Shown: positions 4,347 to 38,047, numbered from the stretch's first letter. The stretch is DNA of 54,821 nucleotides from Candidatus Kuenenbacteria bacterium (GCA_012797775.1 JAAZOM010000011.1:1-54821), one strand, 5' to 3'. Notes: a model not told the origin generated them from the letters alone. Numbers and translations: made by a program.

Positions 4347-4376
4347 AAACCCTGATCACTAGATCAGGGTTTGTTT
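4347..4376. terminator. Terminator between convergent genes
   Basis: AACCCTGATC-ACTA-GATCAGGGTTTGTTTTTTA: a 10-bp stem followed by a T-rich tract, 15 bases after the carbonic-anhydrase-like gene and in front of the minus-strand regulator's end. Confidence 0.75.
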
Positions 4377-4405
4377 TTTATTGGTTGTTAATTGCTGGTT
4401 GTTTT

Positions 4406-5137
4406 TTATGGCAGGGTTGCCCAAAGTATATCAAAAATCTGCTGATATCCTTTGGCTAAATTATTATCAATGATCACATAGAGGGCCAAGTCTTTCTCGT
4501 TTTCACCTTCAACAACAGAAACAATGTGATCACCAAAAATATTGATACTCATGTCGCTTGCCTTACCTTCTGGTAAAAATTTGCAACTGTCAGCAGAAAT
4601 TTTGCTGCCCTCAAAAAATATATCTTTTTGGATACTATTCAAAATGTGTTTTTCTTTTAGCCCTATTGCCTCCGCTTCTAGGTGAAAACTATTAACGAAA
4701 CTTTTTATTTTTTCATTAAATAAAAAACCGGCGCTGCCAATCGTATAAAGATCGGCGCCGGTTTTTAAAATATCACGTAAATAATTTTTAACTCCTTCGA
4801 GCCCGCGATAGACAAAAATTTCTTGTTTGCGCGGGTTTTTGTGGTATTGCTCCTCTAGGGCTGGCAAAATGGCCGAGAGTTTGTTCTCTTTGGCCCTGAT
4901 AATTTCTAGTAATTTTGAGGGGCTGGCAGCTTTATAGGTATTTTCCTCTTTACTTAATACTGGAAAAATTAGGCCTTTTTCCACCAATCGATCAATGGCA
5001 TCATAAGCGTTGCGACGGTGGATACCAGAATTAAGCGAAACTGAAGATACATTAAGTGCCCCTTCATTAAGTAGGGTTTCGTAAATTTTTGCTTCATTGG
5101 GCGTTAGCCCTATTTCTTGAAAAATTTGAGAGTACAT
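4406..5137 (-). CDS. TrmB-family transcriptional regulator
   Basis: N-terminal winged helix (about residues 1-80 from the ATG at 5137): IFQEIGLTPNEAKIYETLLNEGALNVSSVSLNSGIHRRNAYDAIDRLVEKGLI is the typical TrmB HTH with its recognition helix. It is followed by a coiled linker ending near LPALEEQYHK and a C-terminal sensor domain (EIFVYRGLEGVKNYLRDILKTGADLYTIGS). TrmB proteins sense sugars or redox state in archaea and are also common in candidate phyla. The open frame extends to 5191, but MYSQIFQEIGLT at 5137 is the family-like start. Palindromes about 130-170 bases upstream may be its operators. Confidence 0.8.
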   Translation of the reverse strand: MYSQIFQEIGLTPNEAKIYETLLNEGALNVSSVSLNSGIHRRNAYDAIDRLVEKGLIFPVLSKEENTYKAASPSKLLEIIRAKENKLSAILPALEEQYHKNPRKQEIFVYRGLEGVKNYLRDILKTGADLYTIGSAGFLFNEKIKSFVNSFHLEAEAIGLKEKHILNSIQKDIFFEGSKISADSCKFLPEGKASDMSINIFGDHIVSVVEGENEKDLALYVIIDNNLAKGYQQIFDILWATLP

Positions 5138-5262
5138 TTTATTTTTGTAATTATTTTTGTTTAAATATTGACTTTTTTGTTTTGGTACCAAGTCGGCCGG
5201 TTATTTTGTTTTTGTCTGTCTGTTGGTGGATTGGCTAATTTTTGTATTTATTTTATGCTTTA

Positions 5263-5303
5263 TATTGTGGTGGTGGATATCACCATATGGTGTTGATTAT
5301 CAC
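5263..5303. promoter_or_regulatory. Candidate operator palindromes upstream of the TrmB-like gene
   Basis: Overlapping inverted repeats GGTGGATATCACC and ATCACCATATGGTGTTGAT occur here in otherwise simple AT sequence. Symmetric GATATCACC-type repeats are what dimeric winged-helix regulators use, and the position would allow autoregulation. This is inference from symmetry and position only. Confidence 0.4.
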
Positions 5304-5412
5304 TCATTATATATTTATTATATCACTTATTAACAAAAAAATTAATAACCACTGTATTTTTGTCTTTGTTTTATTTTTTTGGCTAATATTGTTTATTTTA
5401 TAAATTAAAAAA

Positions 5413-5428
5413 TGTTCCACGTGGAACA
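5413..5428. promoter_or_regulatory. parS-like ParB binding site
   Basis: TGTTCCACGTGGAACA is a perfect 16-bp palindrome differing from the canonical parS TGTTTCACGTGAAACA only at the symmetric pair. It lies in a gene-free region about 13 kb from dnaA, consistent with the origin-proximal location of parS. No parA or parB is present in the window. Confidence 0.75.
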
Positions 5429-5948
5429 TTTTTCAACATTTTTTAATGTTTTTACCCAACTTGTCCACATATTTGTAGACAAAGCCATATAATTATCTTG
5501 ACATTATCAGTATAATTACAATTTTCTTTTGTTTTTGTGGCGATTCTGCTTTAATATTTTTAATTTTTAAATTATTTTATTAAAATTACTCTTTTTCTTT
5601 GGTCTTGCCTGTTTTATTAGATCTCTGGTGCCCGATGCTCATTGTCTTTAATATTAATTAATATATATTCTGTCTCTCTTGCGATAAAGTGGATATTAAT
5701 TATTCTTTTTTATTGTTTTTTATTCTTTTTGATATTTTAGAAAAAATAATATATTTTAAAAAAATTACTATAATTTTAATTATTATTTAATTTTAGCAAA
5801 TATTATTCTTTTCTTGAAAATAAATTATTTTTTGTGAAATTTGTCTATTTTTTATTATTTTTTGCTAATATTAGTTAAATATTGCTTTTTTGATAAAAAA
5901 AATAATGTTGATAACCTGTGTATTGTTTAGCAAATCTGTTTAAAACTA
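5429..5948. other. Gene-free T-rich intergenic region
   Basis: No ORF, RNA gene or terminator was recognised. The plus strand is strongly T-rich, with long runs of TTTTTATT type. TTGTCCACA and TTGATAACC-like words occur, but no clear cluster of DnaA boxes. Around 5622-5640 there is an isolated TCTGGTGCCC that could be the 3' end of a decayed tRNA read on the minus strand. The whole region 5192-5980 is likely non-coding chromosomal space around parS. Confidence 0.5.
5449..5469 (+). repeat. Direct repeat unit 1 (TTTTTACCCAACTTGTCCAC)
   Basis: The 21-base block at 5449-5469 recurs identically at 7004-7024. Each copy is followed within about 10 bases by a TTG(T)AGACAAAG / TTGACAAAAAC segment, so similarity extends further. 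The two copies bracket the parS/tRNA region. Confidence 0.7.
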
Positions 5949-5972
5949 AAAACAGCCCCCATCGGCTGTTTT
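5949..5972 (-). terminator. Hairpin terminator in tRNA region
   Basis: AAACAGCC (5950-5957) pairs with GGCTGTTT (5964-5971). It resembles the hairpin at 6121-6142 after the intact tRNA-Ala, as expected if the tRNA with its terminator had been duplicated. Confidence 0.6.
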
Positions 5973-5981
5973 AAATTAATC

Positions 5982-6043
5982 TGGTGGACCCTAGGGGGAT
6001 CGGTTCCTGGGTAGCGCACAAAAGTGCCGCTGGCACTTTTGAC
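5982..6043 (-). pseudogene. tRNA-Ala 3' remnant joined to a palindrome
   Basis: On the minus strand CGATCCCCCTAGGGTCCACCA (5982-6002) repeats the T-arm and acceptor end of tRNA-Ala(GGC). Immediately 5' of it the tRNA body is lost and replaced by sequence carrying CAAAAGTGCC-GCT-GGCACTTTTG (6021-6043). No functional tRNA can be folded. Confidence 0.7.
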
Positions 6044-6117
6044 GACGCCCACTGCGTCACTATGCTCCTTGTTCGCTTCTACCCTTCGATCCCCTTAAAA
6101 GTCATAAAATTAACCCC

Positions 6118-6142
6118 AAAAAACAGCTATTTCTAGCTGTTT
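6118..6142 (-). terminator. Terminator of tRNA-Ala(GGC)
   Basis: AAACAGCT (6121-6128) pairs with AGCTGTTT (6135-6142); the minus strand ends in TTTTTT. It lies 10 bases after the tRNA 3' end. Confidence 0.75.
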
Positions 6143-6151
6143 AATATATAT

Positions 6152-6227
6152 TGGTGGACCCTAGGGGGATCGAACCCCTCACCTCTTCCATGCCATGGAA
6201 GCGCTCTACCAGATGAGCTAAGGGCCC
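6152..6227 (-). tRNA. tRNA-Ala(GGC)
   Basis: 76-nt cloverleaf with encoded CCA: acceptor GGGCCCT/AGGGTCC, D stem GCTC/GAGC, anticodon stem CTTCC/GGAAG with loop ATGGCAT (anticodon GGC), and TTCGATC T-loop. The stop codon of the GIY-YIG gene at 6228 is immediately adjacent to the first tRNA base, so the tRNA is transcribed directly after, and probably processed out of, that message. Confidence 0.93.
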
Positions 6228-6494
6228 TTATCTTAAACTTATACACCCACTTTTTATAATTTTCTCAATAATTTTCCGACTTTTTAATCTTTTAATTCTA
6301 TACTCTAGTCTTCTTGCCTCTTTAATATCTAACAAGGGATAAAACATAATCAGTTGCCACGGTCTTAGGCCCTTGGTTGATTTTACTAATCCAGCATTGT
6401 GCTCAATGAGTCTATGGTCGACATTTTTTGAGCTACCAACATAATAACTACTATTTTTTAAACTTTTTAGAACATAAACACCAATTTTGTTCAT
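6228..6494 (-). CDS. GIY-YIG endonuclease-domain protein abutting tRNA-Ala
   Basis: 88-aa single-domain GIY-YIG protein of the YhbQ/UPF0213 size class. Motifs in order: GVYVLKS (GIY), YYVGSSKNVDHRLIEHN (YIG, with the catalytic-type Arg in DHRL), STKGLRPWQLIMFYPL, and the Glu-containing KEARRLEYRIKRLKSR helix. GIY-YIG modules cut DNA in UvrC, homing endonucleases and small stand-alone proteins. The ATG at 6494 is preferred over an in-frame TTG at 6500. It starts inside the T-arm position of a broken tRNA-Ala and ends exactly at an intact tRNA-Ala. A homing-like relationship with the tRNA gene is an inference. Confidence 0.85.
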   Translation of the reverse strand: MNKIGVYVLKSLKNSSYYVGSSKNVDHRLIEHNAGLVKSTKGLRPWQLIMFYPLLDIKEARRLEYRIKRLKSRKIIEKIIKSGCISLR

Positions 6495-6500
6495 AAGCAA

Positions 6501-6562
6501 GTCCTCACCTCCCCGACAGCACCAAGCTTGTCGGGACGCTCTACCAGATGAGCTAAGGGCCC
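6501..6562 (-). pseudogene. Broken tRNA-Ala copy: 5' half plus foreign palindrome
   Basis: The minus strand starts GGGCCCTTAGCTCATCTGG and runs through the D arm (6562-6537), identical to tRNA-Ala(GGC). The anticodon arm is then replaced by CCCGACA-loop-TGTCGGG (6512-6535), followed by AGGTGAGG of the variable/T region, after which the GIY-YIG gene begins. The anticodon stem-loop and acceptor 3' end are missing, so no function as tRNA is possible. Confidence 0.85.
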
Positions 6563-6634
6563 AAAATATAATTATTATTATAAAGTATAATTGATGTAAA
6601 AAATAAAATCAAATTGGCTAATATAAAATAAATT

Positions 6635-6712
6635 CTGGTGGACTTACCGGGAATTGTCCCGAGATAAACTCGGGATGCCGACTTCATGTCGGCAAACCCG
6701 GAACCCGGTCCC
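6635..6712 (-). pseudogene. tRNA 3' remnant with two palindromes
   Basis: The minus strand ends CAATTCCCGGTAAGTCCACCA, a tRNA T-arm/acceptor 3' end with CCA. Upstream lie two perfect palindromes, TCCCGAG/CTCGGGA (6657-6675) and TGCCGAC/GTCGGCA (6676-6694), instead of tRNA arms. The 5' half of a tRNA is not recognisable. Confidence 0.6.
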
Positions 6713-6781
6713 TCACTTTTTCCAAAACAACAAATAAAAATACCCTTGCTAAAAAGTGGCGACTATTAATTCCCCTTGTTT

Positions 6782-6857
6782 TGGTGGACCAAGGGGGATT
6801 CGAACCCCCCACCTCGGCAATGCGAATGCCGCGCTCTACCAAATGAGCTATTGGCCC
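6782..6857 (-). tRNA. tRNA-Ala(CGC)
   Basis: 76-nt cloverleaf: acceptor GGGCCAA/TTGGTCC, D arm GCTC/GAGC, anticodon stem CGGCA/TGCCG with loop TTCGCAT (anticodon CGC), TTCGAAT T-loop and encoded CCA. It is closely related in D arm to tRNA-Ala(GGC). Confidence 0.93.
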
Positions 6858-6886
6858 ACTAAAATAAGGGTTTAAAAGTGTGGGAC

Positions 6887-6919
6887 GAATGCCGTGTTAT
6901 ACCGTTTAACTATAAGCCC
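6887..6919 (-). pseudogene. tRNA 5'-half remnant
   Basis: The minus strand GGGCTTATAGTTAAACGG followed by TATAACACGGCATTC looks like acceptor, D arm (GTTA/TAAC) and the start of an anticodon arm. The 3' half is absent: no complementary anticodon stem, T-loop or acceptor strand follows. The original isoacceptor cannot be assigned. Confidence 0.5.
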
Positions 6920-7003
6920 GAGGCCATGGCGGGCAGGTGCAAATATGGGGATATAACCAAACGAGCCAGGGGATATTAAAAATATTATCCCCTATTATCA
7001 ACT

Positions 7004-7024
7004 TTTTTACCCAACTTGTCCACA
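7004..7024 (+). repeat. Direct repeat unit 2 (TTTTTACCCAACTTGTCCAC)
   Basis: Second identical copy of the 21-base block at 5449-5469, located between the tRNA-Ala group and tRNA-Arg. Confidence 0.7.
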
Positions 7025-7074
7025 ATTGCGTTGACAAAAACTTTTTACCTCTTTATAAACAAACTCTGGTCTAT

Positions 7075-7146
7075 TCTCCCCAGTAGGAATTGAACCTACA
7101 TCTAGGGCTTAGGAGTCCCTTGTTCTATCCGTTGAACTATGGGGAG
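7075..7146 (-). tRNA. tRNA-Arg(CCT)
   Basis: Acceptor CTCCCCA/TGGGGAG, D arm with AACGGAT loop, anticodon loop CTCCTAA (anticodon CCT) on an AGGGA/GCCCT stem with one terminal mismatch, and TAGGT-TCAATTC T arm. The CCA end is not encoded, unlike the two tRNA-Ala genes. It reads AGG codons. Confidence 0.85.
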
Positions 7147-7307
7147 AGAAAATAACAAACTCTTGGCACTGTGCCATGTCTGCGAATAGATCCGAAAATG
7201 TATTGGACTAACTAAAGCATAATTTATTTTTGGGTTCTTGGCAAACAAAAATAATTTCAAAATAAAATAATTGTGTTATAATAATAATATAGAAAATAAC
7301 GGATTGT

Positions 7308-10300
7308 ATGATGTCCGAGATTTTTGGTGATAATCAAAAACAAACCCTAAAAAAAACTAACTTTGTTTTAAAGTCCGCTTTTTTTATAGCGGTTTTTATT
7401 TTATGTGGAAATATTATAGCCCTGAAAACCGGGCTAACAGAACAACTGTCAAAAATTTTTTACTACCCTATAGGAGGATCAGTGGCGGGGGAATATGCGG
7501 TGAGAATAGCGGCAGGAGATGAGCCCAACTGGAACCCCTCATACCCAAGGGTTACCTATGTTACCCCATCGGCAGACTCCTATTTCACTGGTTGCGCTGA
7601 GATCTCGGGAAACTTTGATGTGGTAGGCGTCTCTTATGGTAACTCTAGCTGTGCTCAAGCAATAAAAAATAAAAATAATCAGGTAATAATTTTTGGCCAA
7701 CTTAGAAGCGCGGTCTCTCTACTAGATGAGACACAAAAAGAGGATGATTTTGTCGATGTTTTGCCATATTTAGCCTTCAGAAGTGACGGCTACCAGCTAG
7801 CACAAGATGTGGCACCAAATACTACGGATGTTGATATAAAATTAAATAAAATTGACGGACTATCTACTGGCAATGGAAGATCTATTATTGTTGTTGGACC
7901 AAATAAGCTTAGTGATATTGACCAAATCGTAAACTACCCTGGGCTTGATCGTTTTTCTTATGCTTCAATAGATGCAGCTAATACGACGCTAAGGGGTGTT
8001 GGCGCTGGGCACGTAGATAAAAATTATAGTGCCGGTGATTATGTTATCCAGGTACCAAAAGTTGGGGGCTGGTTGGTAAATGTTTCCACAAGAAATCCAA
8101 CCTATAAAGACAATATAGCTTTTTATATTAATGATAAATACAAAAATGTTTCATCCTCTTATTTAAAATCTATAGATGCTATTTGGTATGATGCTTTCCG
8201 TTTTACCGGGGCCGAATCAGAGTTTGACAATGTGGATTTCAATCTTGATTTCGTGGCAGACACGCTGGCGGAAAAAACTAGCTCTTGGCAGGCTGGGCTG
8301 AAAGAAACATTTACCGCAGAAAAACAATATACTGGTAAAAAATATGTAATAACAAATGATGGTAATGGTGTGGTTCTCCCCAGCAGTGTAGCATCTTGGC
8401 ATGATGGTTTTATAGTTGAGTCTTGCATGTTCTATATAAATTCGTGGAATGACTATCTAAAAACACTCCAGGCGTGGAGCGATGCTGGGGATAGATTTAT
8501 CCTCTGCACTGATGAAAAATTTGATCCCTCTTATTGGACTGCTGAAAAAAAAGAGCGTTATAAAAATTATTTCAGCGACATGCGCTATGGCTTAACAACC
8601 AACACGATGGGAGATGCTTTCTATGGTCGTGAGGTTGGACAATACTACCAAATAAATCTTTGGTACGATGAGTACCAGACAGATTTGGGGTATCCGAAAA
8701 GTAAGGCACAAAAAATTAACAGCTTGTGCTTCAATGAAAAAATTGACTACACAACTTATGAACGTTGCCCATATGTCCGATTTTTTGACAATGGAGCGGC
8801 AATTGTTAACCCAACATTTAAAGATATAACAATAAAAGATAGTGATATAAAAGGTTTGGCTGGCTATGCCGGCCCATATTATAGATTTTATGGGGGGCAA
8901 TCTCCCACTGTTAATAATGGAAAGCAGTTGACGGATGGCGACCCCGTTGTTTTAACAGGACAGTATGCCGGCAATCCGGGCAAAGATGGAAAAAATAAGG
9001 GTGATGGAATTTTATTATTTAAAAAACCTGATTATTATGTAGTAGCCGATATTTTGGTCGGTAATTTTAATAATAATGATACATCTCCGGGGAGTAAGCC
9101 CGTCGAAACGACTGGCAGTTGGCCCAATGGCATAGATACTGGGGCGAAAACAAATCCTTATTTTTCACAATGGAACTGGGATGGTGATGAAGGTTGGGGA
9201 TATTTTTATACTACTGATCAAAGTGCTACGGCTACTTTCAGGCCAACCATTGGCATCGGTGGTGAGTATGAGGTTTTTGAGTGGCATGGCTGGGCCAACA
9301 ACGGTGGGGGTGGTGGGGAAGCTACAAATGTAAAAACAGAAATAAAACATGCCAACGGCACACAAAATACAACTATCAACCAGCGTGGCAACTATGGCAA
9401 GTGGAACAGTCTTGGAAAATTTATTTTTAATGCTGGTACTGATTGTTATGTAAAAATTTCAGCATCTGGGGCCGACGGAACCGTCTTGGCTGACGCGGTA
9501 AAATTTGTTTTTACCGGAAACTCCATACAACCACCACAACCACCGCCACCACCAGTTTGTAATAATAACGGTAACTGTGATGAACCTGGAGAAACAAATG
9601 CTAACTGCCCAAATGATTGCCCACCAGTCCCTAGCGGACAGTGCTATGCGGCGGATCATTTTTTAAACAGTACTTTAACTGATTTTAGTAAGTTTCATTT
9701 CAAGGGTGGCCCAGAAAAACAGGTTGATTTTCCAGATAATACTCATGCGCGCATACACCTAGAAGGAAGTATGAATAATCCAACTTCTGGAATCATTATG
9801 AAAAACGACATCCCTGCTGGCACGACTGACTTTGAAGTAAAAGTAGAGAGGTCTGGTCCGGAAGACGAAGTTGAAATTCTTTTCATGGAGGGCGATCCTG
9901 ATGCTTGTAAAAATTTTCTGATTGCCCTGCACCCGGTTTCCTTTGCCAATGCGGTCGGCAAAACAAGCCCAACTGGCTCAGCCGGACTAGGCTGCACCGA
10001 CAGCAACCAATGCAAGAGATTCTTAGAGATCCAATATTATGGTGATGGCACCAAGGGCACTAGCGCCGACAATTTGCCTGGCTATCCCAATTGTGATGAT
10101 GCAAACCCAAAAGAATTTGTCTTGGTCTCTGAACAAAGCAAGGTTGATAATTTGCTGGTATTAAAAGTGGTAAAACAAGGTTCGGTTTATGATATTTACA
10201 ATGATGACCAAAAAATCGGCACCTATACTGATTCAAAAAATCTTAATATTACCAAGGTGGCTGTGGTTAATCGCTCTAGTAACAGTCTAAAAAGTGACTA

Positions 10301-18200: not shown

Positions 18201-18313
18201 AAAATTAAATTTAATTTATAAAAACATTAAAATTCAATTTTACAATAACACAAAATACAAAACAAATCAAAATATTGGGCTAAAATTTGTTTTTGTTAAT
18301 TAATCTTTATATT

Positions 18314-18384
18314 ATTAACCTATACACAAAAATATCCACATTTTTTGCACTTTTTTTACTCTTTCTGTTGCTTTGTGTATAAGT
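18314..18384. promoter_or_regulatory. Candidate DnaA boxes between rpmH and dnaA
   Basis: Near-consensus 9-mers occur at 18320-18328 (CTATACACA), 18332-18340 (ATATCCACA) and, on the minus strand, 18374-18382 (TTATACACA). Three within 65 bases in an AT-rich gap upstream of dnaA suggest autoregulation of dnaA and/or part of the origin. Confidence 0.55.
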
Positions 18385-18443
18385 CCGGAGTGTGCTATTA
18401 TTTAGATAGATTTTTTAGAAAATAAACAAAATATACAAAAAAT

Positions 18444-19817
18444 ATGACCAGAGATGAATTATGGCAGGCAGTCTTGGGAGAGCTGGAGTTGACCCTGTCA
18501 AAAGCTAATTTTACTACGTGGTTTAAAAACACCTTTATCATAGCCGAGGAGAATGATCAGGTAATTATTGGGGTGCCAAACCTGTTCACGCAGGCCTGGT
18601 TTGAGAAAAAATATAATGATTTAATTATAAAAACTCTAAAAAAAATTACAAACAATCGGGTAAAAAACATAATCTATAAAATAGAGATAAGAAAACAAAA
18701 TCTGCTAATATTGGCTGAAAAAAATACACAAACAGAGTCAACATCATCACCTGAAAGCATAAATTTAACAATAGAACAAAATAATTACAACGGCTTAAAC
18801 CCAAAATATACTTTTGATAAGTTTATAGTGGGGAAAAACAATGAGCTGGCCCATGCGGCGGCAAAAGCGATTAGTGACAAACCCGGTGAAACCTATAACC
18901 CCTTATTCCTTTATGGTGGAGTGGGATTGGGAAAAACACACCTTTTGCAAGCGGTTGGCCACTTTTTAATAGAAAAAAACCCAAAAATAAAGGTTTTATA
19001 TACCACCTGTGAAAAATTTACTAACGATTTTGTTCAGGCAATAAGAACGGGGAAAACAAAGATTTTCCAAGATAAATACCGAGATGTTGATTTGTTGATT
19101 ATGGATGACATTCAATTTATGGAAGGAAAAGAACAAACACAGGAGCAGTTTTTTCATACTTTTAACGATTTGTACCAAAAAAACAAGCAAATTGTGATAT
19201 CTTCTGATCGCCCACCCAAAGCTATTCCAACGCTGGAAGACAGACTAAGGTCAAGATTTGAATGTGGAATGATAGCAGATATAAGCGAGCCAGATCTAGA
19301 GACAAGAATTGCTATTATTGGCTCAAAATTGGCCGAAAAGAGCTACTTTTTACCAGATGAGGTGGTGAGCCACATTGCCTCAAACATACAAAGCAATATT
19401 AGAGAATTGGAGGGTGCATTAAATAGAATTATTGCCCACCACGAGCTAAGAAAAGAAAAACCAACCCTAGAGTCAGTAAAACCAATTATTTCTACTCTGG
19501 TAAACCTGCCGCGCAAGGGGTCTATTTCGCCCAAACTGATAATCCAGACCGTTTCTGAGTATTTTTCTATTAATATAAATGATATTGTTGGGAGCTGTAG
19601 AAAAAAAGAATTAGTGGTGCCAAGACAAATAGTTATGTATTTTTTGAGGGAGGAGCTAGACGCCTCTTTCCCAAATATTGGGCAGGAATTGGGTGGCAGA
19701 GACCACACCACTGCTATGCACGCTCATAGTAAAATAAAAAATCAGTTAATTGATGATGAAAAACTAAAACAAGATATTACTATTTTAAAACAAAAAATAT
19801 TTAATAGTGCTGTTTAG
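18444..19817 (+). CDS. dnaA: Chromosomal replication initiator DnaA
   Basis: 457 aa with all four domains: N-terminal domain I (ELWQAVLGELELTLSKANFTTWFKNTFI), a variable linker with Glu/Ser-rich sequence (about residues 95-115), AAA+ domain III (YTFDKFIVGKNNELAHAAA, Walker A GGVGLGKTHLL, Walker B DLLIMDDIQF, sensor region ISSDRPPKAIPTLEDRLRSRFECGM) and the C-terminal DnaA-box binding helix-turn-helix (PRQIVMYFLREEL ... LGGRDHTTAMHAHSKI). It opens double-stranded DNA at oriC and starts replication. It is followed by dnaN in the standard order after a 257-base AT-rich gap. Confidence 0.97.
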   Translation: MTRDELWQAVLGELELTLSKANFTTWFKNTFIIAEENDQVIIGVPNLFTQAWFEKKYNDLIIKTLKKITNNRVKNIIYKIEIRKQNLLILAEKNTQTESTSSPESINLTIEQNNYNGLNPKYTFDKFIVGKNNELAHAAAKAISDKPGETYNPLFLYGGVGLGKTHLLQAVGHFLIEKNPKIKVLYTTCEKFTNDFVQAIRTGKTKIFQDKYRDVDLLIMDDIQFMEGKEQTQEQFFHTFNDLYQKNKQIVISSDRPPKAIPTLEDRLRSRFECGMIADISEPDLETRIAIIGSKLAEKSYFLPDEVVSHIASNIQSNIRELEGALNRIIAHHELRKEKPTLESVKPIISTLVNLPRKGSISPKLIIQTVSEYFSININDIVGSCRKKELVVPRQIVMYFLREELDASFPNIGQELGGRDHTTAMHAHSKIKNQLIDDEKLKQDITILKQKIFNSAV

Positions 19818-24871: not shown

Positions 24872-25014
24872 TCATAGCGTTTGCGTGTATGAGAAGTTTC
24901 GCCGGCTTCCTTATTATTTTATCATAGAGGAGGCGAAATTTGGGTGAAAGAAAAAGTGCAACCCCTGAAAATTATCTACGTACTTTTTCTTGAACCCCAT
25001 ACACGCTGTTATGT
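24872..25014 (-). repeat. attC-like site A
   Basis: Stem GCGTGTATG (24883-24891)/CATACACGC (24998-25006). Two arms inside: TTTCGCC/GGCGAAA, then linker AAATTTGGGTG, then AAGAAAAAGT/ACTTTTTCTT. The box at 25008-25014 is GTTATGT; the opposite box reads CATAGCG, a decayed AAC side. About 90% similar to site D in its left half. Confidence 0.8.
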
Positions 25015-25022
25015 GCTGTTGA

Positions 25023-25505
25023 TTATAATTTTTTTGGTGACTCTCTGCGTTTTTTATTATAAAATTCTTCTTGTTTCTGATGAAATTCAAGACTTACTAG
25101 ATCTAATTCTTGAATCAGTAAATCAATAATGTCATTAAAGAATTCTCCGCCATTTTCGGCCTTGCTTAGTTTTCGATCCGCTAAACTTCTGGCAATATTT
25201 TGATTAGATCGCTGTCCGAATTCAAGCAAATTGGTCATCGCTAGGTTAAGCCTAGAGAGCGTTTTTTGTTTTTGTTGGAGGGATAAAGATTCTTCTTTGT
25301 TTATCATTTCAACACATTGCTCATAGGAGTCATAAAGGGAAGAAAGGACTATTTTTGTAGCCATTTTAATATCATCTTCATTAAACATGGTTCCAGCATC
25401 AGCCATCTGTCGTTGCCAATCGGACAAAAAATGCTTTCGATCCCAAGAACGAGCTGGCATTTCGTTAAAAATAGTGGAGAATTCTTTTCCTTCAAAATAT
25501 GGCAT
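25023..25505 (-). CDS. Cassette I: hypothetical protein
   Basis: 160 aa, not recognised. MPYFEGKEFSTIFNEMPARSWDRKHFLSDWQRQMADAG is followed by mostly helical, charged sequence (LSLQQKQKTLSRLNLAMTNLLEFGQRSNQNIARSLADRK, QELDLVSLEFHQKQEEFYNKKRR). There is no signal peptide or membrane segment, so it is probably cytoplasmic. The stop codon is 9 bases from the site A box and the start 37 bases from site B. There is no room for a terminator and no clear promoter, as expected for an integron cassette. Confidence 0.7.
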   Translation of the reverse strand: MPYFEGKEFSTIFNEMPARSWDRKHFLSDWQRQMADAGTMFNEDDIKMATKIVLSSLYDSYEQCVEMINKEESLSLQQKQKTLSRLNLAMTNLLEFGQRSNQNIARSLADRKLSKAENGGEFFNDIIDLLIQELDLVSLEFHQKQEEFYNKKRRESPKKL

Positions 25506-25541
25506 GGTGTTTTAAGTTGGTAAGTAATTATGGTCAATTGC

Positions 25542-25616
25542 ACACAACGTACCCGAATATCTGAAGTTGTGAAACAATTTGGGTGAACGAAGTGAACCAG
25601 ATATTCGGTGTTGTAC
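25542..25616 (-). repeat. attC-like site B (short)
   Basis: 75 bases. Stem CCGAATATCTG (25553-25563)/CAGATATTCGG (25598-25608), boxes CACAAC at 25543-25548 and GTTGTAC at 25610-25616. Inner arms are minimal: TTGT-GAA-ACAA and GGT...ACC, with linker AATTTGGGTG between them. This is the shortest and most classical-looking attC of the array. Confidence 0.82.
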
Positions 25617-25635
25617 GATGTCGAATCCCGAAGCA

Positions 25636-25980
25636 TTAATCAATGAGAAAATCCAGCTGTTCTTTTGGTATACCGATTGAAAGTCCGTGTTCAACCGCGG
25701 GTACCCACGAAGATTTATCATCATAATTAAACTCAAACTTCTTGCCCTGGAAAATCGCAATAACTTCTCTATCTTTCCAAAAATGCATATACCACTTAGG
25801 CTTGATATTCTCAGACAGCCTAGCTATATCTTCGTGGGTAACAGAAACAGTATATAGATGCCACCTATCTGCTGGATTTTCATCCTTTGAAATTCTAAAA
25901 CCAATAATTTTAAAATCGTTGATTACACGATTGTCATTTAAACTTTCCTCAACGATAGTTCCTTTGTACATGTCTGACAT
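25636..25980 (-). CDS. Cassette II: hypothetical protein
   Basis: 114 aa, acidic, probably cytoplasmic. MYKGTIVEESLNDNRVINDFKIIGFRI, DRWHLYTVSVTHEDIARLSENIKPKWYMHFWKDREVIAIFQGKKFEFNYDDKSSW and EHGLSIGIPKEQLDFLID read like a well-conserved small alpha/beta protein; I have the impression that close relatives exist widely as hypothetical proteins, but no function is known to me. The Trp-rich WYMHFWKD segment and the final P-x-E-Q-L-D-F motif would be useful search anchors. Stop is 20 bases from site B. Confidence 0.75.
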   Translation of the reverse strand: MSDMYKGTIVEESLNDNRVINDFKIIGFRISKDENPADRWHLYTVSVTHEDIARLSENIKPKWYMHFWKDREVIAIFQGKKFEFNYDDKSSWVPAVEHGLSIGIPKEQLDFLID

Positions 25981-26196
25981 ATGATTATTTTAAAATTATT
26001 GGTTTGCCTCGGGATTCGATTTTGTACAACGTTTCTGTGTATCTGAAGTTTCAGATACTTTATTGTAGCTTCTCAGTAATGTTCAATCAATAAAAAGCTA
26101 CAATGAAGAATCTGAAATTTGGGTGAGGGGATAAGAAAATAAAATGAATTATTACCTTCAATTAAAAGCCCTTTTGAAACTTTAGATGACTGTGTG

Positions 26197-26224
26197 TTGA
26201 CAAAATTAGCGATAGTGCTAAGTT
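26197..26224 (+). promoter_or_regulatory. Promoter of the nested gene in site C
   Basis: TTGACA (26197-26202), 16 bases, TAAGTT (26219-26224), about 44 bases before the ATG. The -35 is perfect, the -10 weak. It lies wholly within the arm-2 loop. Confidence 0.5.
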
Positions 26225-26267
26225 TAATTTCTAGAATGTACAATAATCATTTAACTCAGGAGGAAAA

Positions 26268-26465
26268 ATGAAATACTCTAAAATATTCAACGGCCAATAT
26301 TTTGTTTTGGTGCAAAACGGTCATTCGCCCTTATTTCGCAAACTGGATGGAAAAGCTCTTCAAATATACGTAAGTACGAATATTCTTAGTCCTGGTTTGT
26401 GTAGTGGCGATGAGATCGTCATTAAGCCTGATAGAAAAGTCCAGCCAGTTGACATGAGCCGTTGA
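26268..26465 (+). CDS. Small protein encoded inside the arm of attC-like site C
   Basis: 65 aa: MKYSKIFNGQYFVLVQNGHS..., KLDGKALQIYVSTNILSPGL, CSGDEIVIKPDRKVQPVDMSR. Not recognised. It looks like a small beta-rich soluble domain (alternating hydrophobic strands), with no membrane segment. An excellent ribosome binding site (AGGAGG, 6 bases before ATG), an upstream TTGACA box and a downstream hairpin terminator make it a convincing expressed gene. It is the only gene of the array on the plus strand and lies wholly in the loop of arm 2. Confidence 0.7.
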   Translation: MKYSKIFNGQYFVLVQNGHSPLFRKLDGKALQIYVSTNILSPGLCSGDEIVIKPDRKVQPVDMSR

Positions 26466-26471
26466 TGGTAT

Positions 26472-26511
26472 TACCCGCTTATTAGCAGAACAATGCGAAC
26501 GGCGGGTTTTA
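26472..26511 (+). terminator. Terminator of the nested gene
   Basis: ACCCGC (26473-26478) pairs with GCGGGT (26502-26507) followed by TTTT; 8 bases after the stop codon. Confidence 0.6.
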
Positions 26512-26608
26512 AATTTCAAAAGGGCTTTTAAAAATATAAAAATTATTCATTTTATTTTCTTATTCCTGAACCAGATACACAGTGTTATACGAAGTTGGGT
26601 TTTGTTTC

Positions 26609-26869
26609 TTACCCGTATCTTAATTTAAGGATTAACATAATGAGGCCAAGTGTTGTGCCAACACTATTCATGGCAGTGAGTGGACCATTATGCAGAATTA
26701 TTCCATAGATTGTCCATAGAATAACACCAACCGCGTATATTATTGAACGTGACAAAGAAATATCTCTCGTGGATTTAGTACGAAAGCTTTTAATCACTTG
26801 GGGCAACATTGAAATGACGACCAAAATTCCAGCGATGTAGCCCAAAATATTAAGCCATTGTAATTGCAT
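26609..26869 (-). CDS. Cassette III: SemiSWEET-type PQ-loop transporter
   Basis: 86 aa with three transmembrane helices, the size of bacterial SemiSWEETs that dimerise to move sugars. The first helix carries the PQ motif: LNILGYIAGILVVISMLPQVIKSFRTKSTRDISLSRSIIYAVGVILWTIYGII, followed by LTAMNSVGTTLGLIMLILKLRYG (third helix with conserved Asn). Transport substrate is not determined by sequence. The stop codon falls inside the cassette terminal inverted repeat. Confidence 0.88.
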   Translation of the reverse strand: MQLQWLNILGYIAGILVVISMLPQVIKSFRTKSTRDISLSRSIIYAVGVILWTIYGIILHNGPLTAMNSVGTTLGLIMLILKLRYG

Positions 26870-26907
26870 AATCGTTTTTTAGTAGAAAAGAAACAAAACT
26901 CAATTTC

Positions 26908-27047
26908 GTATAACGTTTGCGTGTATGAGAAGTTTCGCCGACTTCCTTACTTTATTCTAGAGGAGGCGAAATTTGGGTGAAAGAAAAAGTGCAACCTTTG
27001 AAAATTATTAACGCGCTTTTTCTTGAGCCTCATACACGCTGTTAAGT
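26908..27047 (-). repeat. attC-like site D
   Basis: Stem GCGTGTATGAG (26919-26929)/CTCATACACGC (27029-27039); boxes GTATAAC (26908-26914) and GTTAAGT (27041-27047), the latter a perfect GTTRRRY. Arms TTTCGCC/GGCGAAA and AAGAAAAAGTGC/GCGCTTTTTCTT (one G-T-type mismatch) flank linker AAATTTGGGTG. Confidence 0.85.
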
Positions 27048-27054
27048 GATGTAT

Positions 27055-27774
27055 TTATAATTTTTTACCGTCCTTATTGTTGTCAATTTTTTTCGAACCG
27101 AATATTATGTAAAGGAAAACTTTATAGTACAAAACAATAGCGGCAATAAATCCGGCAATGACCAATAGAGATATTTTTAGAATATAAAAAGTTGTAAGAA
27201 AATCTGATTTTCTATAAAAAACTAAATCTTTGTAGAACAAAGAATTGTCATCTATTGGCTCTAAAAATCTAAGTTTTCCGTCTTCTTGCCCATTGCTATC
27301 ATAATGCGTGTATGCGTCAGGAAGTAAACACTTGATATTGTTTATTCTTATATAATTTGCGAATGTTTCTATTGGGACATCATTTTTGCCGTATATATCT
27401 CTGATAAACAAAGTTCGTATTCCGCTTTTGTTTTGTACGTCAGCAACTTTATTTTCAAGATTATTGGAACAATAAATATCGTCATATAAAGTTTTATCGG
27501 TCGTTGCATTTAGGTGGTATGAAGCCCCGGGACGATCATACAATTCTTCAACTATTTCATTTGGTTTCTTTAGTTCTCGGATTTGTTTAACTTCGGTCGT
27601 TATTCGATCGTTAACAGAATCAACAATTTCGTATTGAGGAATAATGAGCGAGTCAAAATAATCATATAGTGTGTATAACGCCAAGATGAAAGACGCGAAA
27701 AAAATTACCAAAAGTAATCTGTGCCACCAACGACCACCTAAATTTAAGTCTTTTCGAAAAAAATTGTTTTTCAT
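27055..27774 (-). CDS. Cassette IV: two-pass membrane protein, unknown
   Basis: 239 aa. TM1 at about residues 15-40 (WWHRLLLVIFFASFILALYTLYDYF) and TM2 at about 195-228 (FLTTFYILKISLLVIAGFIAAIVLYYKVFLYIIFG), enclosing an approximately 150-residue soluble domain (ITTEVKQIRELKKPNEIVEELYDRPG ... DAYTHYDSNGQEDGKLRFLEPI) that should face outside. The cytoplasmic tail KKIDNNKDGKKL is Lys-rich. The domain is not recognised. Stop is 8 bases from site D. Confidence 0.75.
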   Translation of the reverse strand: MKNNFFRKDLNLGGRWWHRLLLVIFFASFILALYTLYDYFDSLIIPQYEIVDSVNDRITTEVKQIRELKKPNEIVEELYDRPGASYHLNATTDKTLYDDIYCSNNLENKVADVQNKSGIRTLFIRDIYGKNDVPIETFANYIRINNIKCLLPDAYTHYDSNGQEDGKLRFLEPIDDNSLFYKDLVFYRKSDFLTTFYILKISLLVIAGFIAAIVLYYKVFLYIIFGSKKIDNNKDGKKL

Positions 27775-27799
27775 ATGAGTAAAAAATTATAAATATTTC

Positions 27800-27995
27800 A
27801 CTTAACGTTTGCGTGTATCCGATGTTTTCATCCCGATTAAACGAGATAAATTTTGGTTATCGAACGCAAGCTTGTAATAGAACTCCACCCAAATCTTCAT
27901 CGAACTAAGGGATGAAAATTTGGGTCGAGGGAAATGGACACTCCTTAAGGATATAATTTGCGTCAATTTCCCGAGCCGGATACACGCTGTTATAC
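27800..27995 (-). repeat. attC-like site E
   Basis: Stem GCGTGTATCCG (27811-27821)/CGGATACACGC (27977-27987); boxes ACTTAAC (27800-27806) and GTTATAC (27989-27995). Arm 1 TTTTCATCCC/GGGATGAAAA has a long loop; linker AATTTGGGTCGA; arm 2 GGGAAAT/ATTTCCC. Confidence 0.85.
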
Positions 27996-28042
27996 GCTGT
28001 TTTGAAAAGTCCCTACCTTAATGTATTTATTTTGGCAATTCA

Positions 28043-28375
28043 TTATTCTTCCATAAGCTCATAAATTCTATCAGCCGCCTTACCTTGGATATGAAATTCC
28101 GTGCCGCCTACATAGAAATGAAAGCTTAATTTTTCAGGGTCGGAAGTAGGGGATGTTTGAAAGTGAGATATTTCGAAATCACCTGATTGTACTCGTTTCA
28201 TATCATCTATTTTCGGATCACTAATGTCAAAATCAAATCCATAACCTTGTTTTTTTGTTTCAGGATTATCTGGCCACTGTTCCCTGAAAAATTTTCTTAT
28301 TGCGGACTCAAATTGTTCTCCTTGATTTTCTTTACTCTCTTGTGGCGGAGTGGCGCCTTCAAATTTTTCTGGCAT
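28043..28375 (-). CDS. Cassette V: hypothetical protein
   Basis: 110 aa, acidic and soluble. A disordered N-terminus (MPEKFEGATPPQESKENQGEQ) precedes AIRKFFREQWPDNPETKKQGYGFDFDISDPKIDDMKRVQSGDFEISHF and LSFHFYVGGTEFHIQGKAADRIYELMEE, which looks like a small beta-sheet fold. Function unknown. It is flanked by the longest terminal inverted repeats of the array (about 55 bases each). Confidence 0.7.
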   Translation of the reverse strand: MPEKFEGATPPQESKENQGEQFESAIRKFFREQWPDNPETKKQGYGFDFDISDPKIDDMKRVQSGDFEISHFQTSPTSDPEKLSFHFYVGGTEFHIQGKAADRIYELMEE

Positions 28376-28477
28376 AATTTTTACTTTAATTAATATTGGT
28401 TAAATTATATCTTAAGTTATATCGACTCCGCCACATGAATTGCCAAAATTTTAATAAATGGGACTTTTCAAAATGGC

Positions 28478-28567
28478 GTATAACTGGTTGTTATCTATAC
28501 TTTTTTGTAGATAACAACTAAAATTTGTAGGTTATCCATACAGATCGAGCAAGGCGTTGGGTTGATT
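28478..28567 (-). repeat. Degenerate attC-like site F (right edge of array)
   Basis: Box GTATAAC (28478-28484), perfect hairpin GTTGTTATCTA (28487-28497)/TAGATAACAAC (28508-28518) as arm 1, linker AAAATTTGTAGG, then a decayed second arm and GTTGGGT (28557-28563), which fits GTTRRRY. The outer stem is not conserved. In minus orientation this is the upstream end of the array; a role as an attI-like simple site cannot be excluded. Confidence 0.55.
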
Positions 28568-33599: not shown

Positions 33600-34925
33600 T
33601 TATAGATAACTAAGGGGATTTCCTCTGGATCCATTGATAATAATTTCTAGATGGATGTGTGGCCCGGTTGACCAACCCGTAGAACCGACTTCGCCCAAGA
33701 CTTCGCCCTGGCTGACTTGGTCGCCTACTTTGACATAAAGCTTTCTAGAGTGGGCATACAGACTTTTGACTCCGTTGCCGTGATTGACGACGATATTGTA
33801 GCCGTAACCGGTAGACCAGCCAGCCCTCTCTACCCGCCCTCCTTTCATGGCATATATGGGGCTGCCTGATTTGGCTCCAATATCAATGGCATTGTGTCTC
33901 CAGCTAAAATATTGAGTGATACGACGGGAGTTGCTCGGCCAAACAAAACTTTTGTCGGCGTTGGTGGCTGGTTTGTCGGAAAATATATTTTTTATAGAGC
34001 CAGTGCTGCGGCTAGCAAGGGTGCCGCTGGAAAGCGGTTTGCCGTCGGGGATAATAATTTTTTGTTTTATTTTTATATTGGCGGCGTCGGCGATATTATT
34101 GTAAGATAATATTTTTTCTATGCTGGAGCCGAATTTTTTGGCGATGCTGCCAAGGGTGTCACCAGACTTTATATTGTAGGTAACGCCATTGGTCGGTAGG
34201 ATGGAGAGTTTTTCTCCCGGTCGGATATAGCTGCCAATAGAGAGGTTGTTTTCCCAAAGAAGGGTGTTGATAGAAATATTGAAGCGGCTGGCAATACTCC
34301 CCAAGGTGTCACCAGCCTGTACTGTATATGTTTGGATGGTGTTACCTTGGTTGGCAGGAACAGTGCCTCCGTTTTCGGTGAAGGGAGAAATGTTTGATTT
34401 TATCAAAGCCTCACCAGACTGCGAGAGGAGGGCGAGAGACTTGTTTTCGGGGCTGGTTTCCTGGGTATCTATTTTTTTTCTACTTTCCAAAGTATCAAGC
34501 TGACTCAAAATAGTTTCTGTTTTTGGATAGCCGGACTCTTTTTTATTTAAGTTTGATTTTTCAACAATTTCTTCTTCGTTTTCTGGGATAAAAATTTTGG
34601 CCAAAATACTATTTTTATTAAATTCGTCGGCATAAGCGTTTTTGGTCGAAAGGTTTGTGATAATAATAAGTAAAAAGATTATTAAGAGAATAGTGTGAAC
34701 AATATATTTTTGACGAAAAGATTTTTTGTACTCAACAAGTTGTTGGCTCAGGGTGTCCTCAAAAAATATTTTTTTTATTTTTTTTTCTAAAAATAAAAAA
34801 ACCTTATAAAAAGGTACAAGAATTTTTCTAAAAAACACAAGCCACAAGTTTTTGCCAAGCAAGGAGGTTATTTTTAAAAAAAACCTGGAAAATAGGGAAG
34901 CAAGTTGGCTGAATATTTTTAGCAT
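33600..34925 (-). CDS. LysM-M23 peptidoglycan endopeptidase
   Basis: 441 aa. A cytoplasmic N-terminal part with several Lys-rich helices, one membrane segment (about residues 77-96, IVHTILLIIFLLIIITNLS), a Ser/Thr-rich linker, two LysM repeats (YTVQAGDTLGSIASRFNISINTLLWENNL and YNIKSGDTLGSIAKKFGSSIEKILSYNNI), then an M23 domain: WRHNAIDIGAKSGSPIYAMKGGRVERAGWSTGYGYNIVVNHGNGVKSLYAH and GSTGWSTGPHIHLEI. The zinc ligands H and D (RHNAID) and the final HxH are all present, so it should be an active peptidoglycan cross-link hydrolase anchored in the membrane. Confidence 0.93.
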   Translation of the reverse strand: MLKIFSQLASLFSRFFLKITSLLGKNLWLVFFRKILVPFYKVFLFLEKKIKKIFFEDTLSQQLVEYKKSFRQKYIVHTILLIIFLLIIITNLSTKNAYADEFNKNSILAKIFIPENEEEIVEKSNLNKKESGYPKTETILSQLDTLESRKKIDTQETSPENKSLALLSQSGEALIKSNISPFTENGGTVPANQGNTIQTYTVQAGDTLGSIASRFNISINTLLWENNLSIGSYIRPGEKLSILPTNGVTYNIKSGDTLGSIAKKFGSSIEKILSYNNIADAANIKIKQKIIIPDGKPLSSGTLASRSTGSIKNIFSDKPATNADKSFVWPSNSRRITQYFSWRHNAIDIGAKSGSPIYAMKGGRVERAGWSTGYGYNIVVNHGNGVKSLYAHSRKLYVKVGDQVSQGEVLGEVGSTGWSTGPHIHLEIIINGSRGNPLSYL

Positions 34926-35089
34926 AAAGAATTAACAAATTGGTGCCTAGCCATGACAATTCGTTGGTATTTAGCGTATCAAAAAAGGCAAATTTAGTAA
35001 AGCTTAATAAATTTGATTTTGGACAAAGTAAGTGATAAGATAAAGGACACTGGAGCATAAAAACATTAAAACACGAAAGCATAAAATAT

Positions 35090-38047
35090 ATGGAGAAATA
35101 TAATCCACAACTAATAGAACCCAAGTGGCAAATAATTTGGGAAGAACAAAAATTATTTCGAGCTAAAGAGTCTGCCTCTTCGGCCGATGGGGATGAAAAT
35201 AAAAAGAAATTTTATGGGTTGATAGAGTTCCCGTATCCTTCTGGCGATGGTCTGCATACTGGGCATTTGCGATCTAATACCGCCATGGATATTATTGCGA
35301 GGAAGAGACGGATGCAGGGCTATAGCGTGTTATATCCGATTGGTTTTGACGCGTTTGGCTTGCCCACAGAAAATTATGCCATCAAGAAAAAAATAAAACC
35401 CCAAGAGGCAACAGCTAAAAATATTGCCACTTTTACCAAACAGCTGAAAGAAGCTGGTTTTTCTTTTGATTGGAGCCGGTCATTTTCCACCACCGATGAG
35501 GATTATTATAAATGGACGCAGTGGATTTTTGTACAGATGTTTAAGCACGGTTTGGCTGAAAAGAAAAAAGAAACAATTAATTGGTGTACTTCATGCAAGA
35601 TTGGTTTGGCCAATGAAGAGGTGGTGAATGGAGTGTGCGAAAGATGTGGGGGCGAGGTAATAAAAAAGGATAAAGAGCAGTGGGTTTTGAAAATTACCCA
35701 ATATGCTGATCGGTTGATTGAAGATTTGGATTTGGTAAATTATTTGGAGCGAATAAAGACACAACAGATAAACTGGATAGGAAAAAGTGAAGGTGCATCT
35801 ATAAAATTTCCAATTTTTAATTTCCAATTTCCAAATAAATCTCAAATCTCAAATTCCAACAACCAAGATTATTTAGAGGTGTTTACGACTAGACCAGATA
35901 CTTTGTTTGGTGTGACTTTTATGGTGGTGGCACCGGAACATTCAATTATCAAAAATCAATTAGCAATTATCAATAACAAAGAAGAGGTTTTGAATTATAT
36001 TGAAGAGGCAAAAAATAAATCAGAATTAGAGCGAACAGATTTAAATAAAGAAAAAACTGGTGTAGAAATAAAAGGCATTAAAGCGATCAATCCAGTCAAT
36101 GGTAAAGAGATTCCGATTTTTGTGGCAGATTATGTGGTGATGGGATATGGTACAGGCGCCATTATGGCCGTGCCAGCGCATGATGAAAGAGATTTTGAGT
36201 TTGCGAAGAAGTATGGGATAGAAATAAAGCAGGTGGTGGCGTTAAAATTTGATGATTATAAAAGGACTATAAAAGTATTAGAGGCATTAAAAGAAATTCA
36301 AGATAAGGCCACAGAGCAAAAGTTGGACATCTGGTTGTTGGGTGGTTTGGCTTCTGCTTTTGTGGCGCGAACGATATATCGGGTGCATGAAGATTTGGAT
36401 TTGATCGTAAAAAATGATAGTGATTTGAACCGACTGAAAGATCTTTTGCTTAATTTGGGTTATATCTTTGAAGGTGAACAAAATTACGAGGATGATACGC
36501 AGCTTTTTGATTTTAGATCGTCTAGCGGGGTCAAGGTTCAGATTGGCAAAAATCAGGGTAAGTTAGGAATTGAAAATGGTGATTTTATAAATACCAGGCT
36601 GGAGCTGGCGGGTGTGACGTCTTTGGTTTTATCTGAGAGGTTTCTTGAGAATTTTAAAAAATGGAGGCGTACACAAGAATGGGTACAGGACTATCAGATA
36701 GTGGCCGATGATTTGGATTTGGAATTTATGTTCGGCCGAGTGATAACTGAAGATGGATTTGCTGTTAATTCTGGTGAATTTGATGGATTATCAACAAGGG
36801 AGTTTAAGGAAAAAATTATTAAATGGCTAGAAGAAAAAAATATTGGTAAAAAACAAATACAATATAAATTGCATGATTGGATTTTTTCAAGACAACGATA
36901 TTGGGGCGAACCGATTCCTATGGTGTATTGCGAAAAGTGTGGTTGGCAAACCGTGCCAGAAAATGAACTACCAATTGTTTTGCCCGAAATTGACGATTAT
37001 CTTCCAACCGATGAAGGTGATTCACCCTTGGCTAAAAATGAGAGTTGGGTGAAAACCAAATGCCCGGTGTGCGGCGGCGAGGCGAGGCGGGAAACTGATG
37101 TCATGCCCAATTGGGCTGGTTCGAATTGGTATTTTGTTCGCTATACTGATCCGAAAAACGAAAAAATGATGGTGGATCCAGAGCGCGCCAAATATTGGCT
37201 ACCAGTTGATTGGTATAATGGCGGCATGGAGCATACCACCTTGCATCTTTTGTATTCCAGATTTGTGTGGAAATTTTTGTATGATATTGGCGCCGTGCCG
37301 AAAGAGTGCGGCGTGGAACCATACGCAAAAAGAACAGCGCATGGCATGATTTTGGGTGAGGGTGGAGTGAAGATGAGTAAGTCAAAAGGCAATGTGATCA
37401 ACCCTGATGAATATGTAAAAAAATACGGGGCTGACACGCTTCGGGTTTATGAGATGTTTATGGGACCGTTTGATCAGCCGATTGCCTGGGAGGACAAGAG
37501 TGTGAATGGGGTGTATAGGTTTTTGAATAGAGTATGGTCATTGCAGGACAAGCTCCAAGCAAGTTCCAAATCTCAAACTTCAAATTCTAAATTAATTACA
37601 TTACTACATCAGACAATTAAAAAGGTGGAGGAGGATATTGAGGAAATGAAGTTTAATACGGCAGTGGCGCAGATGATGATTTTCCTTAATGAGTTGGAAA
37701 AAACAGAAGAATTATCTCAAGGATTGTGGGAGAAATTTATTTTGATTTTATCTCCCTTTGCGCCGCACCTGGCGGAAGAGTTGTGGCAGAATTTGGGACA
37801 CAAAGAATCCTTGGTGCATGAGAAATGGCCAGAGTATGATCCAGCCCTAATCAGGGCAGAAGAGTTTGAATTGGTAATTCAAATAAATGGCAAGGTCAGA
37901 GAAAGGATTTTGGTGGCAACGGATATTGGCGAGGAAGAGGTAAAAGAGCTAGCTCTCAAGAGCGATAAGGTACAAAAGTGGCTGGAAGGTAAAGAGCCAA
38001 AAAAGATGGTTTATATCAAAGGGAAGTTGTTGAGTATGGTAATATAA
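35090..38047 (+). CDS. leuS: Leucyl-tRNA synthetase with inserted nucleotidyltransferase-like domain
   Basis: 985 aa against about 810-870 normally. Class I signatures: PYPSGDGLHTGHLRSNT (HIGH), GVKMSKSKGNVINP (KMSKS), zinc-type CTSCKIGLANEEVV...CERCGGEV and CEKCGW...CPVCGG, and editing CP1 with TTRPDTLFGVTF and YGTGAIMAVPAHDERD. After that last motif (residue 384) come about 165 extra residues before NSGEFDGLSTREFKEKI resumes normal LeuRS sequence. The insert carries DIWLLGGLASAFVARTIYRVHEDLDLIV, a pattern of small ANT(2'')/LinA-like nucleotidyltransferases. Short repeats at 35803-35866 and 37551-37596 are also in frame. The HIGH, KMSKS and core anticodon parts are intact, so the enzyme is probably functional. 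Confidence 0.95.
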   Translation: MEKYNPQLIEPKWQIIWEEQKLFRAKESASSADGDENKKKFYGLIEFPYPSGDGLHTGHLRSNTAMDIIARKRRMQGYSVLYPIGFDAFGLPTENYAIKKKIKPQEATAKNIATFTKQLKEAGFSFDWSRSFSTTDEDYYKWTQWIFVQMFKHGLAEKKKETINWCTSCKIGLANEEVVNGVCERCGGEVIKKDKEQWVLKITQYADRLIEDLDLVNYLERIKTQQINWIGKSEGASIKFPIFNFQFPNKSQISNSNNQDYLEVFTTRPDTLFGVTFMVVAPEHSIIKNQLAIINNKEEVLNYIEEAKNKSELERTDLNKEKTGVEIKGIKAINPVNGKEIPIFVADYVVMGYGTGAIMAVPAHDERDFEFAKKYGIEIKQVVALKFDDYKRTIKVLEALKEIQDKATEQKLDIWLLGGLASAFVARTIYRVHEDLDLIVKNDSDLNRLKDLLLNLGYIFEGEQNYEDDTQLFDFRSSSGVKVQIGKNQGKLGIENGDFINTRLELAGVTSLVLSERFLENFKKWRRTQEWVQDYQIVADDLDLEFMFGRVITEDGFAVNSGEFDGLSTREFKEKIIKWLEEKNIGKKQIQYKLHDWIFSRQRYWGEPIPMVYCEKCGWQTVPENELPIVLPEIDDYLPTDEGDSPLAKNESWVKTKCPVCGGEARRETDVMPNWAGSNWYFVRYTDPKNEKMMVDPERAKYWLPVDWYNGGMEHTTLHLLYSRFVWKFLYDIGAVPKECGVEPYAKRTAHGMILGEGGVKMSKSKGNVINPDEYVKKYGADTLRVYEMFMGPFDQPIAWEDKSVNGVYRFLNRVWSLQDKLQASSKSQTSNSKLITLLHQTIKKVEEDIEEMKFNTAVAQMMIFLNELEKTEELSQGLWEKFILILSPFAPHLAEELWQNLGHKESLVHEKWPEYDPALIRAEEFELVIQINGKVRERILVATDIGEEEVKELALKSDKVQKWLEGKEPKKMVYIKGKLLSMVI

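Follow-up and report, generated by a model that had tools for sequence, protein, structure and literature searches.

In a stretch of 54,821 nucleotides from Candidatus Kuenenbacteria bacterium (GCA_012797775.1, JAAZOM010000011.1:1-54821; hereafter the window), we found an array of five gene cassettes whose ends carry long terminal inverted repeats, here called arms, that abut attC-like recombination sites. The arms match within their own cassette, have a conserved geometry and come together in the circular form of the cassette, and the system is linked to a tyrosine recombinase and an attI-like site. The explanation that we favor, and consider reasonably probable from sequence comparison and fold prediction, is that, once a cassette is excised as a circle, the arms lengthen its bottom-strand attC fold and would thereby favor integration. 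Folding in vivo, insertion as a single strand and a benefit to integration are what we infer from these observations.

The array consists of five attC-like sites and five single-gene cassettes (I to V), with no integrase adjoining it. In each cassette, one arm lies at the 3' end of the gene and its partner at the 5' end (coordinates on the plus strand). The gene-3' arm of cassette I (25008-25030) holds the stop codon of gene I and is matched by 25526-25548. The arms of cassette II (25610-25635 and 26005-26030) are 26 nt long and match at 85%, with the stop codon directly after the gene-3' arm, at 25636. In cassette III, the gene-3' arm (26584-26610, partner 26888-26914) extends to the stop codon, and in cassette IV the 28-nt gene-3' arm (27041-27068, partner 27779-27806, 93%) includes the last 14 bases of the gene. 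The gene-3' arm of cassette V (27989-28043, partner 28435-28484) has an outer part at 27989-28013 and an inner part at 28029-28043, the latter facing 28435-28449. The match counts given in the initial annotation were all exact on recomputation (18/23, 19/22, 25/27, 26/30 and 23/25 for cassettes I to V, the last for the outer part). The inner match in cassette V, described there as 14 bases long, is present but comprises 15 (15/15).

As a local control, all 14,726 GTT..AAC pairs lying 250 to 1500 bases apart within the window were scored over 26 positions. Cassette pairs hold ranks 1 to 4, and cassette I, with 19/26, is one of only eight pairs scoring at least 19. Contig C29 of this genome carries another array (L009, G000:C29:63000-72300, positions 101-8262). 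It contains three complete cassettes with open reading frames of 175, 216 and 169 amino acids, and all three have matching terminal repeats.

When sought in other genomes, the repeats were found in the cassettes of relatives as well. The main sample comprised 166 cassettes bounded by consecutive sites, and an independent replicate comprised 59. Cassettes were counted as armed if positions 12-25 after GTT, beyond the R box, matched in at least 10 of 14 places. By this measure, 85/166 cassettes (51%) are armed, compared with 1.9% when arms are mispaired and 2.3% when the mispairing stays within one locus, and the distribution of match scores has two peaks. The replicate gave 26/59 (44%) versus 1.8% in the mispaired control. 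It is extremely improbable that the arms are chance similarities of the flanks or the remnant repeats of an unrelated transposon. The flanks are indeed A+T-rich, and three non-cassette GTT..AAC pairs in the window also reach 19-20/26 (18289-18634, 7030-7701 and 34064-35399), possibly by chance. A chance origin is nevertheless ruled out by the mispairing controls. Moreover, every arm starts from an AAC/GTT box, arm sequences vary from cassette to cassette, and a survey of open reading frames and Pfam matches found no transposase among the genes of the window array.

The arms are about 26 bp long, and their identity in armed cassettes varies with position: 0.8-1.0 in the R box, 0.88-1.0 at positions 12-22, about 0.72 at positions 23-25, and background by about position 28. 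Positions 10 and 11 stand out with an identity of only 0.11 and 0.02. They form a conserved TG/AA mismatch (GTTnnnnGATGT versus GTTnnnnGAAAT) that recurs in the replicate, so the arms are not plain perfect repeats. Some cassettes have second matching stems past unpaired side hairpins, the second stem in some reaching 55-70 bases. Many "unarmed" cassettes turned out to have the same arms with a GC-rich insert of 37-65 bases that interrupts one arm precisely at positions 10-11. With this insert allowed, a further 14/33 cassettes of the replicate match in at least 13 of 15 places, versus 1.1% in controls. The inserts occur in a sizeable minority of cassettes (for example at loci L082, L083, L088, L089 and L126) and carry recurring motifs (CCCGA..., GCGCAGCGTGG); they look like an additional structured domain.

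The sites themselves, on the plus strand, fold as a three-way junction. Their core begins with AAC and a spacer of 4 bases, continues with stem I (11 bp), hairpin II, TTTGGGTGA, hairpin III and GACC, and closes with the other half of stem I, T and GTT. Among the eight sites of the host genome used for covariation analysis, two-sided changes were found in 19/33 stem pairs and 95% of cells were paired, versus 30-47% when the partners were slid by up to three columns. As in attC sites, the R boxes end in AAC or start with GTT and the bottom strand is foldable, with a fold more stable than that of the sense strand for 89% of cores. The junction (GGGTGA opposite GACC) is conserved in all genomes although the hairpins vary. 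Conservation to this degree is unusual for attC; the two segments could form tandem G.A pairs.

In a circular cassette, the arms had been expected to carry the attC stem on beyond the R boxes, and this proved to be so in the circular form only. On average, 3.54 of the four bases after GTT are matched within a cassette, versus 1.92 across an integrated site and 1.94 at random (replicate: 3.73 within the cassette and 1.91 across the integrated site). Arms on either side of one integrated site match in at least 10 of 14 places in just 4% of cases. Folding energies, calculated with DNA parameters and averaged over cassettes that each kept their own core, are predicted at -52.3 kcal/mol for the bottom strand of the circle, versus -34.7 when the site lies in the array and -32.8 when the arms are swapped. 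The replicate agrees, the circle being better than the array in 96%. The two ends of one cassette are thus complementary, those on either side of an integrated site are not, and on the whole the complementarity belongs to the free circle.

The predicted folds also differ between strands. The sense strand of the circle is predicted at -47.5 kcal/mol, with the bottom strand more stable in 98% of cassettes (88% in the replicate). Residual mismatches in the two stems favor G.T wobbles on the bottom strand, by 38:16 in the main sample (p = 0.013 versus mispaired arms) and 44:20 with both sets pooled (p = 0.012), a lean that is suggestive only. These strand differences bear on a possible function of the arms in the transcript, where the untranslated 5' and 3' ends of the mRNA would pair and thereby protect or regulate it. 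Each gene does lie between its own arms, and the arms are near its start and stop codons. However, it is the antisense strand that is predicted to pair better and toward which the wobbles lean, and the repeats abut recombination boxes and include the nnnn of the R box (GTTnnnnG), which has no role in an mRNA. Cyclization of the mRNA is thus disfavored by the strand preference, and we consider this explanation very unlikely.

Applied to the window, our favored explanation, that the arms act in insertion of the circle, would work as follows. The region is a CALIN-like cassette array of an integron-like system (CALIN: a cluster of attC sites without a nearby integron integrase), with each cassette made up of one minus-strand gene and the attC-like site at its 3' end. 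Upon excision as a circle, both cassette ends would meet around the cassette's own site. The terminal repeats would then continue the bottom-strand hairpin, which would run from the branched core through stem I, an unpaired spacer and the R box to the conserved two-base mismatch or a side-hairpin domain, followed by 12-15 bp and, in some cassettes, by a second stem that reaches about 55-70 bases. Such a long duplex might stabilize the free circle's folded single strand, or offer the recombinase extra grip on it. The long stem cannot form in the array, so that insertion at attI would be favored over excision. The circle-specific pairing suggests that the folded single strand of the circle is the form being inserted.

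The initial annotation had regarded each pair of arms as specific to its gene, which does not hold. Gene II has a homologue of 75% identity at locus L122, and the two sequences correspond as far as the stop codon (position 27 in the gene-3' arm). Past the stop codon, the arms of the two are mutually unrelated, each matching its own partner. Among the homologues found in 85,000 genomes, those at L150 (same array as L122) and L151 lie in arrays with arms, and four others (L148, L149, L152 and L153) have neither arms nor an adjoining detected site; at L148, sites lie about 0.6 kb away. A distant pair of the family (33% identity) has different, self-matching arms, and one 63% pair and one 84% pair share theirs. 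In a second gene family (204 amino acids), two homologues in arrays have an arm sequence in common, and the flanks of the other homologues have no arms. The arms therefore change in concert, either through copying or through paired substitutions.

Changes of this kind bring in the main rival explanation, fold-back copying, which would make the arms a record of cassette birth: a nicked attC hairpin would prime copying of the gene's 3' flank, and the inverted copy before the gene would later decay. Copying agrees with arms that match within a cassette and differ among unrelated cassettes, with stop codons and coding bases that can fall within the gene-3' arm, with gene II and its homologue switching at the stop codon from similarity to wholly different, self-matching arms, and with the lack of arms around homologues outside arrays. 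However, the TG/AA mismatch at positions 10-11 and the near-fixed arm length are not expected from simple copying, and the second matching stems past unpaired side hairpins and the lean of the wobbles to one strand also argue against it. We consider copying possible but unlikely. It is compatible with a role of the arms in insertion, and both can be true.

The host genome (930 kb, 31 contigs) encodes two tyrosine recombinases. One of them, a protein of 272 amino acids on contig C31, has the XerA-type family NF040815 as its best match and passes the cut-off (234.8 versus 220 bits), but fails the integron-integrase model TIGR02249 (203 bits, cut-off 265). No protein above the TIGR02249 cut-off was found in this genome or in any of 94 genomes of relatives. 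In an alignment to Vibrio cholerae IntI (PDB 2a3v), both flanks of segment ~201-239 align and the segment itself is missing, so the recombinase lacks the IntI-specific additional domain, an insert near patch III. In relatives, recombinases of about 270-300 amino acids that show this gap are located at one end of many arrays and are encoded on the other strand than the cassette genes (for example in genomes G006, G041, G033, G017, G061, G075, G093 and G064). As in integrons, the integrase of these relatives is thus at the attI end and divergent from the cassettes, an arrangement not seen in the window, where no integrase adjoins the array. Among the 94 genomes, strong recombinase matches and sites co-occur in 32, sites alone are found in 14, the recombinase alone in 6 and neither in 42 (Fisher p = 1.6e-8).

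The link between this recombinase and the window is an attI-like site at the proximal array end (28482-28542, plus strand). From 28482 on, the sequence is nearly identical to that with which contig C31 begins, ahead of the integrase gene, and the window array thus appears to end in the attI-like site of the same integron. Contig C31 ends exactly at this attI-like site (L001/L010). To judge from the sequence, the contig breaks where an array should start, and the array of the integrase is probably unassembled.

Several observations weigh against a role of the arms in inserting a folded single strand. Part of the stability difference between bottom and sense strand is contributed by the core. 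The wobble bias is weak, and in the replicate alone it is not significant (6:4). About one third of cassettes are without clear arms, and some of these pairs span a site of a second type or sites that escaped detection. In classical integrons, the IntI insert binds the extrahelical bases; with a recombinase that lacks this insert, recognition of a single strand cannot simply be assumed.

Compared with classical attC sites (class 1, Vibrio VCR), the sites described here have in common the AAC/GTT R boxes, the imperfect palindrome, the pairing of the free cassette past the R boxes, one gene per cassette in one orientation, the site at the 3' end, and a bottom strand that is predicted to fold best (PMC2727003). 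They differ in that the arms, at about 26 bp, are about twice the textbook length and have an internal mismatch and side hairpins, and in that the core is a three-way junction, whereas the classical one is a single hairpin with extrahelical bases. According to PMC2727003, most classical cassettes self-pair past the 7-nt R boxes, for 9-11 consecutive nt in total. In a Vibrio plasmid array, we found self-pairing of 7-14 nt (median 11), with background from position 13. The classical limit is exceeded here, identity remaining above 0.85 to position 22. The claim that nothing of the kind is described in integrons is therefore too broad, because short cassette-specific end pairing is known, but we found no description of the long, branched version. 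The new features are a length of about 26 bp (55-70 in some), an internal mismatch that is conserved, side hairpins and a branched core.

The recombinase resembles IntI in being a tyrosine recombinase that adjoins attI and diverges from the cassettes, but that of the host genome scores below the TIGR02249 cut-off and lacks segment ~201-239 of 2a3v. To XerA-type recombinases (NF040815; PDB 4a8e, 5hxy) it is similar in length and in passing the family cut-off. It differs from them in adjoining cassette arrays in relatives and in having an attI-like site in common with the window array. We know of no chromosome-dimer XerA that lies beside cassette arrays or shares an attI-like site. The window array resembles a CALIN in having five sites and no adjoining integrase; unlike a CALIN, it keeps an attI-like end, and its likely integrase is on another contig of the same genome. 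Archaeal integrons are reported to retain the IntI additional domain (PMC9668308), in contrast to the patescibacterial system. Because the recombinase fails the IntI domain test, we would not class the system with the IntI integrons, but would describe it as working like an integron.

A covariance model built from the host-genome sites identified 11 sites in that genome, plus one weak match on the reverse strand, and detected sites in 46 of the 94 relatives. A second covariance model, applied to 286 genomes of the class, detected sites in 137, or about half. An integron-like system thus appears to be widespread in Patescibacteria. In the open-access literature (subscription papers and preprints were outside the search), we found no description of integrons in Patescibacteria, the Candidate Phyla Radiation, Parcubacteria or Magasanikbacteria.

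More tentatively, and with somewhat more doubt than confidence, we propose that Patescibacteria may have an integron system of their own, in which an insert-less recombinase would recognize the branched fold and the circle-only stem; the stem would act as a one-way insertion switch, and the concerted replacement of arms would record cassette birth. If true, integron-like gene capture would extend to the reduced genomes of Patescibacteria, and an integron could work with a recombinase that lacks the domain thought to define IntI. The origin of integron cassettes and their preference for insertion at attI over excision are open questions, and the difference between circle and array in a long, easily scored stem makes both of them testable.

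The five cassette genes of the window are all on the minus strand. Gene I (25023-25505, 160 amino acids), gene IV (27055-27774, 239 amino acids) and gene V (28043-28375, 110 amino acids) have no Pfam match. Gene II (25636-25980, 114 amino acids) has homologues both within and outside arrays, and gene III (26609-26869, 86 amino acids) encodes a small membrane protein of the PQ-loop/MtN3 (SWEET-like) type (PF04193, PF03083). A single gene per cassette, uniform orientation and a palindromic attC-like site at each 3' end are as expected of an integron, and in 82/85 armed cassettes the sense-strand open reading frame is the longer one. An Rfam scan of the window returned rRNA and tRNAs only.

The sites between the genes measure 67 to 559 bases and are given here on the plus strand, each with the cassette to which it belongs. 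Site 1 (24876-25010, cassette I) forms the distal array end and is supported by its fold and by covariance-model matches; its outer R box is degenerate, with ATAGCG in place of nAACG. Covariance-model matches also identify site 2 (25546-25612, cassette II), a short form of 67 bases, site 4 (26912-27043, cassette IV) and site 5 (27804-27991, cassette V). Site 3 (26028-26586, cassette III), identified by fold and covariance model, is enlarged. Its hairpin III is opened by about 400 extra bases with inverted inner arms of 57 nt (26128-26184 and 26510-26566, plus strand, 72% complementary). Between them is an open reading frame of 65 amino acids (26268-26465, plus strand) without Pfam match, which runs in the opposite direction to the cassette genes. 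It looks as though a hairpin loop inside the recombination site held a gene. Finally, a second, shorter type of GC-rich palindromic site, repeating within an array, is found between some cassettes (L063, L081, L086, L091, L120 and L121).

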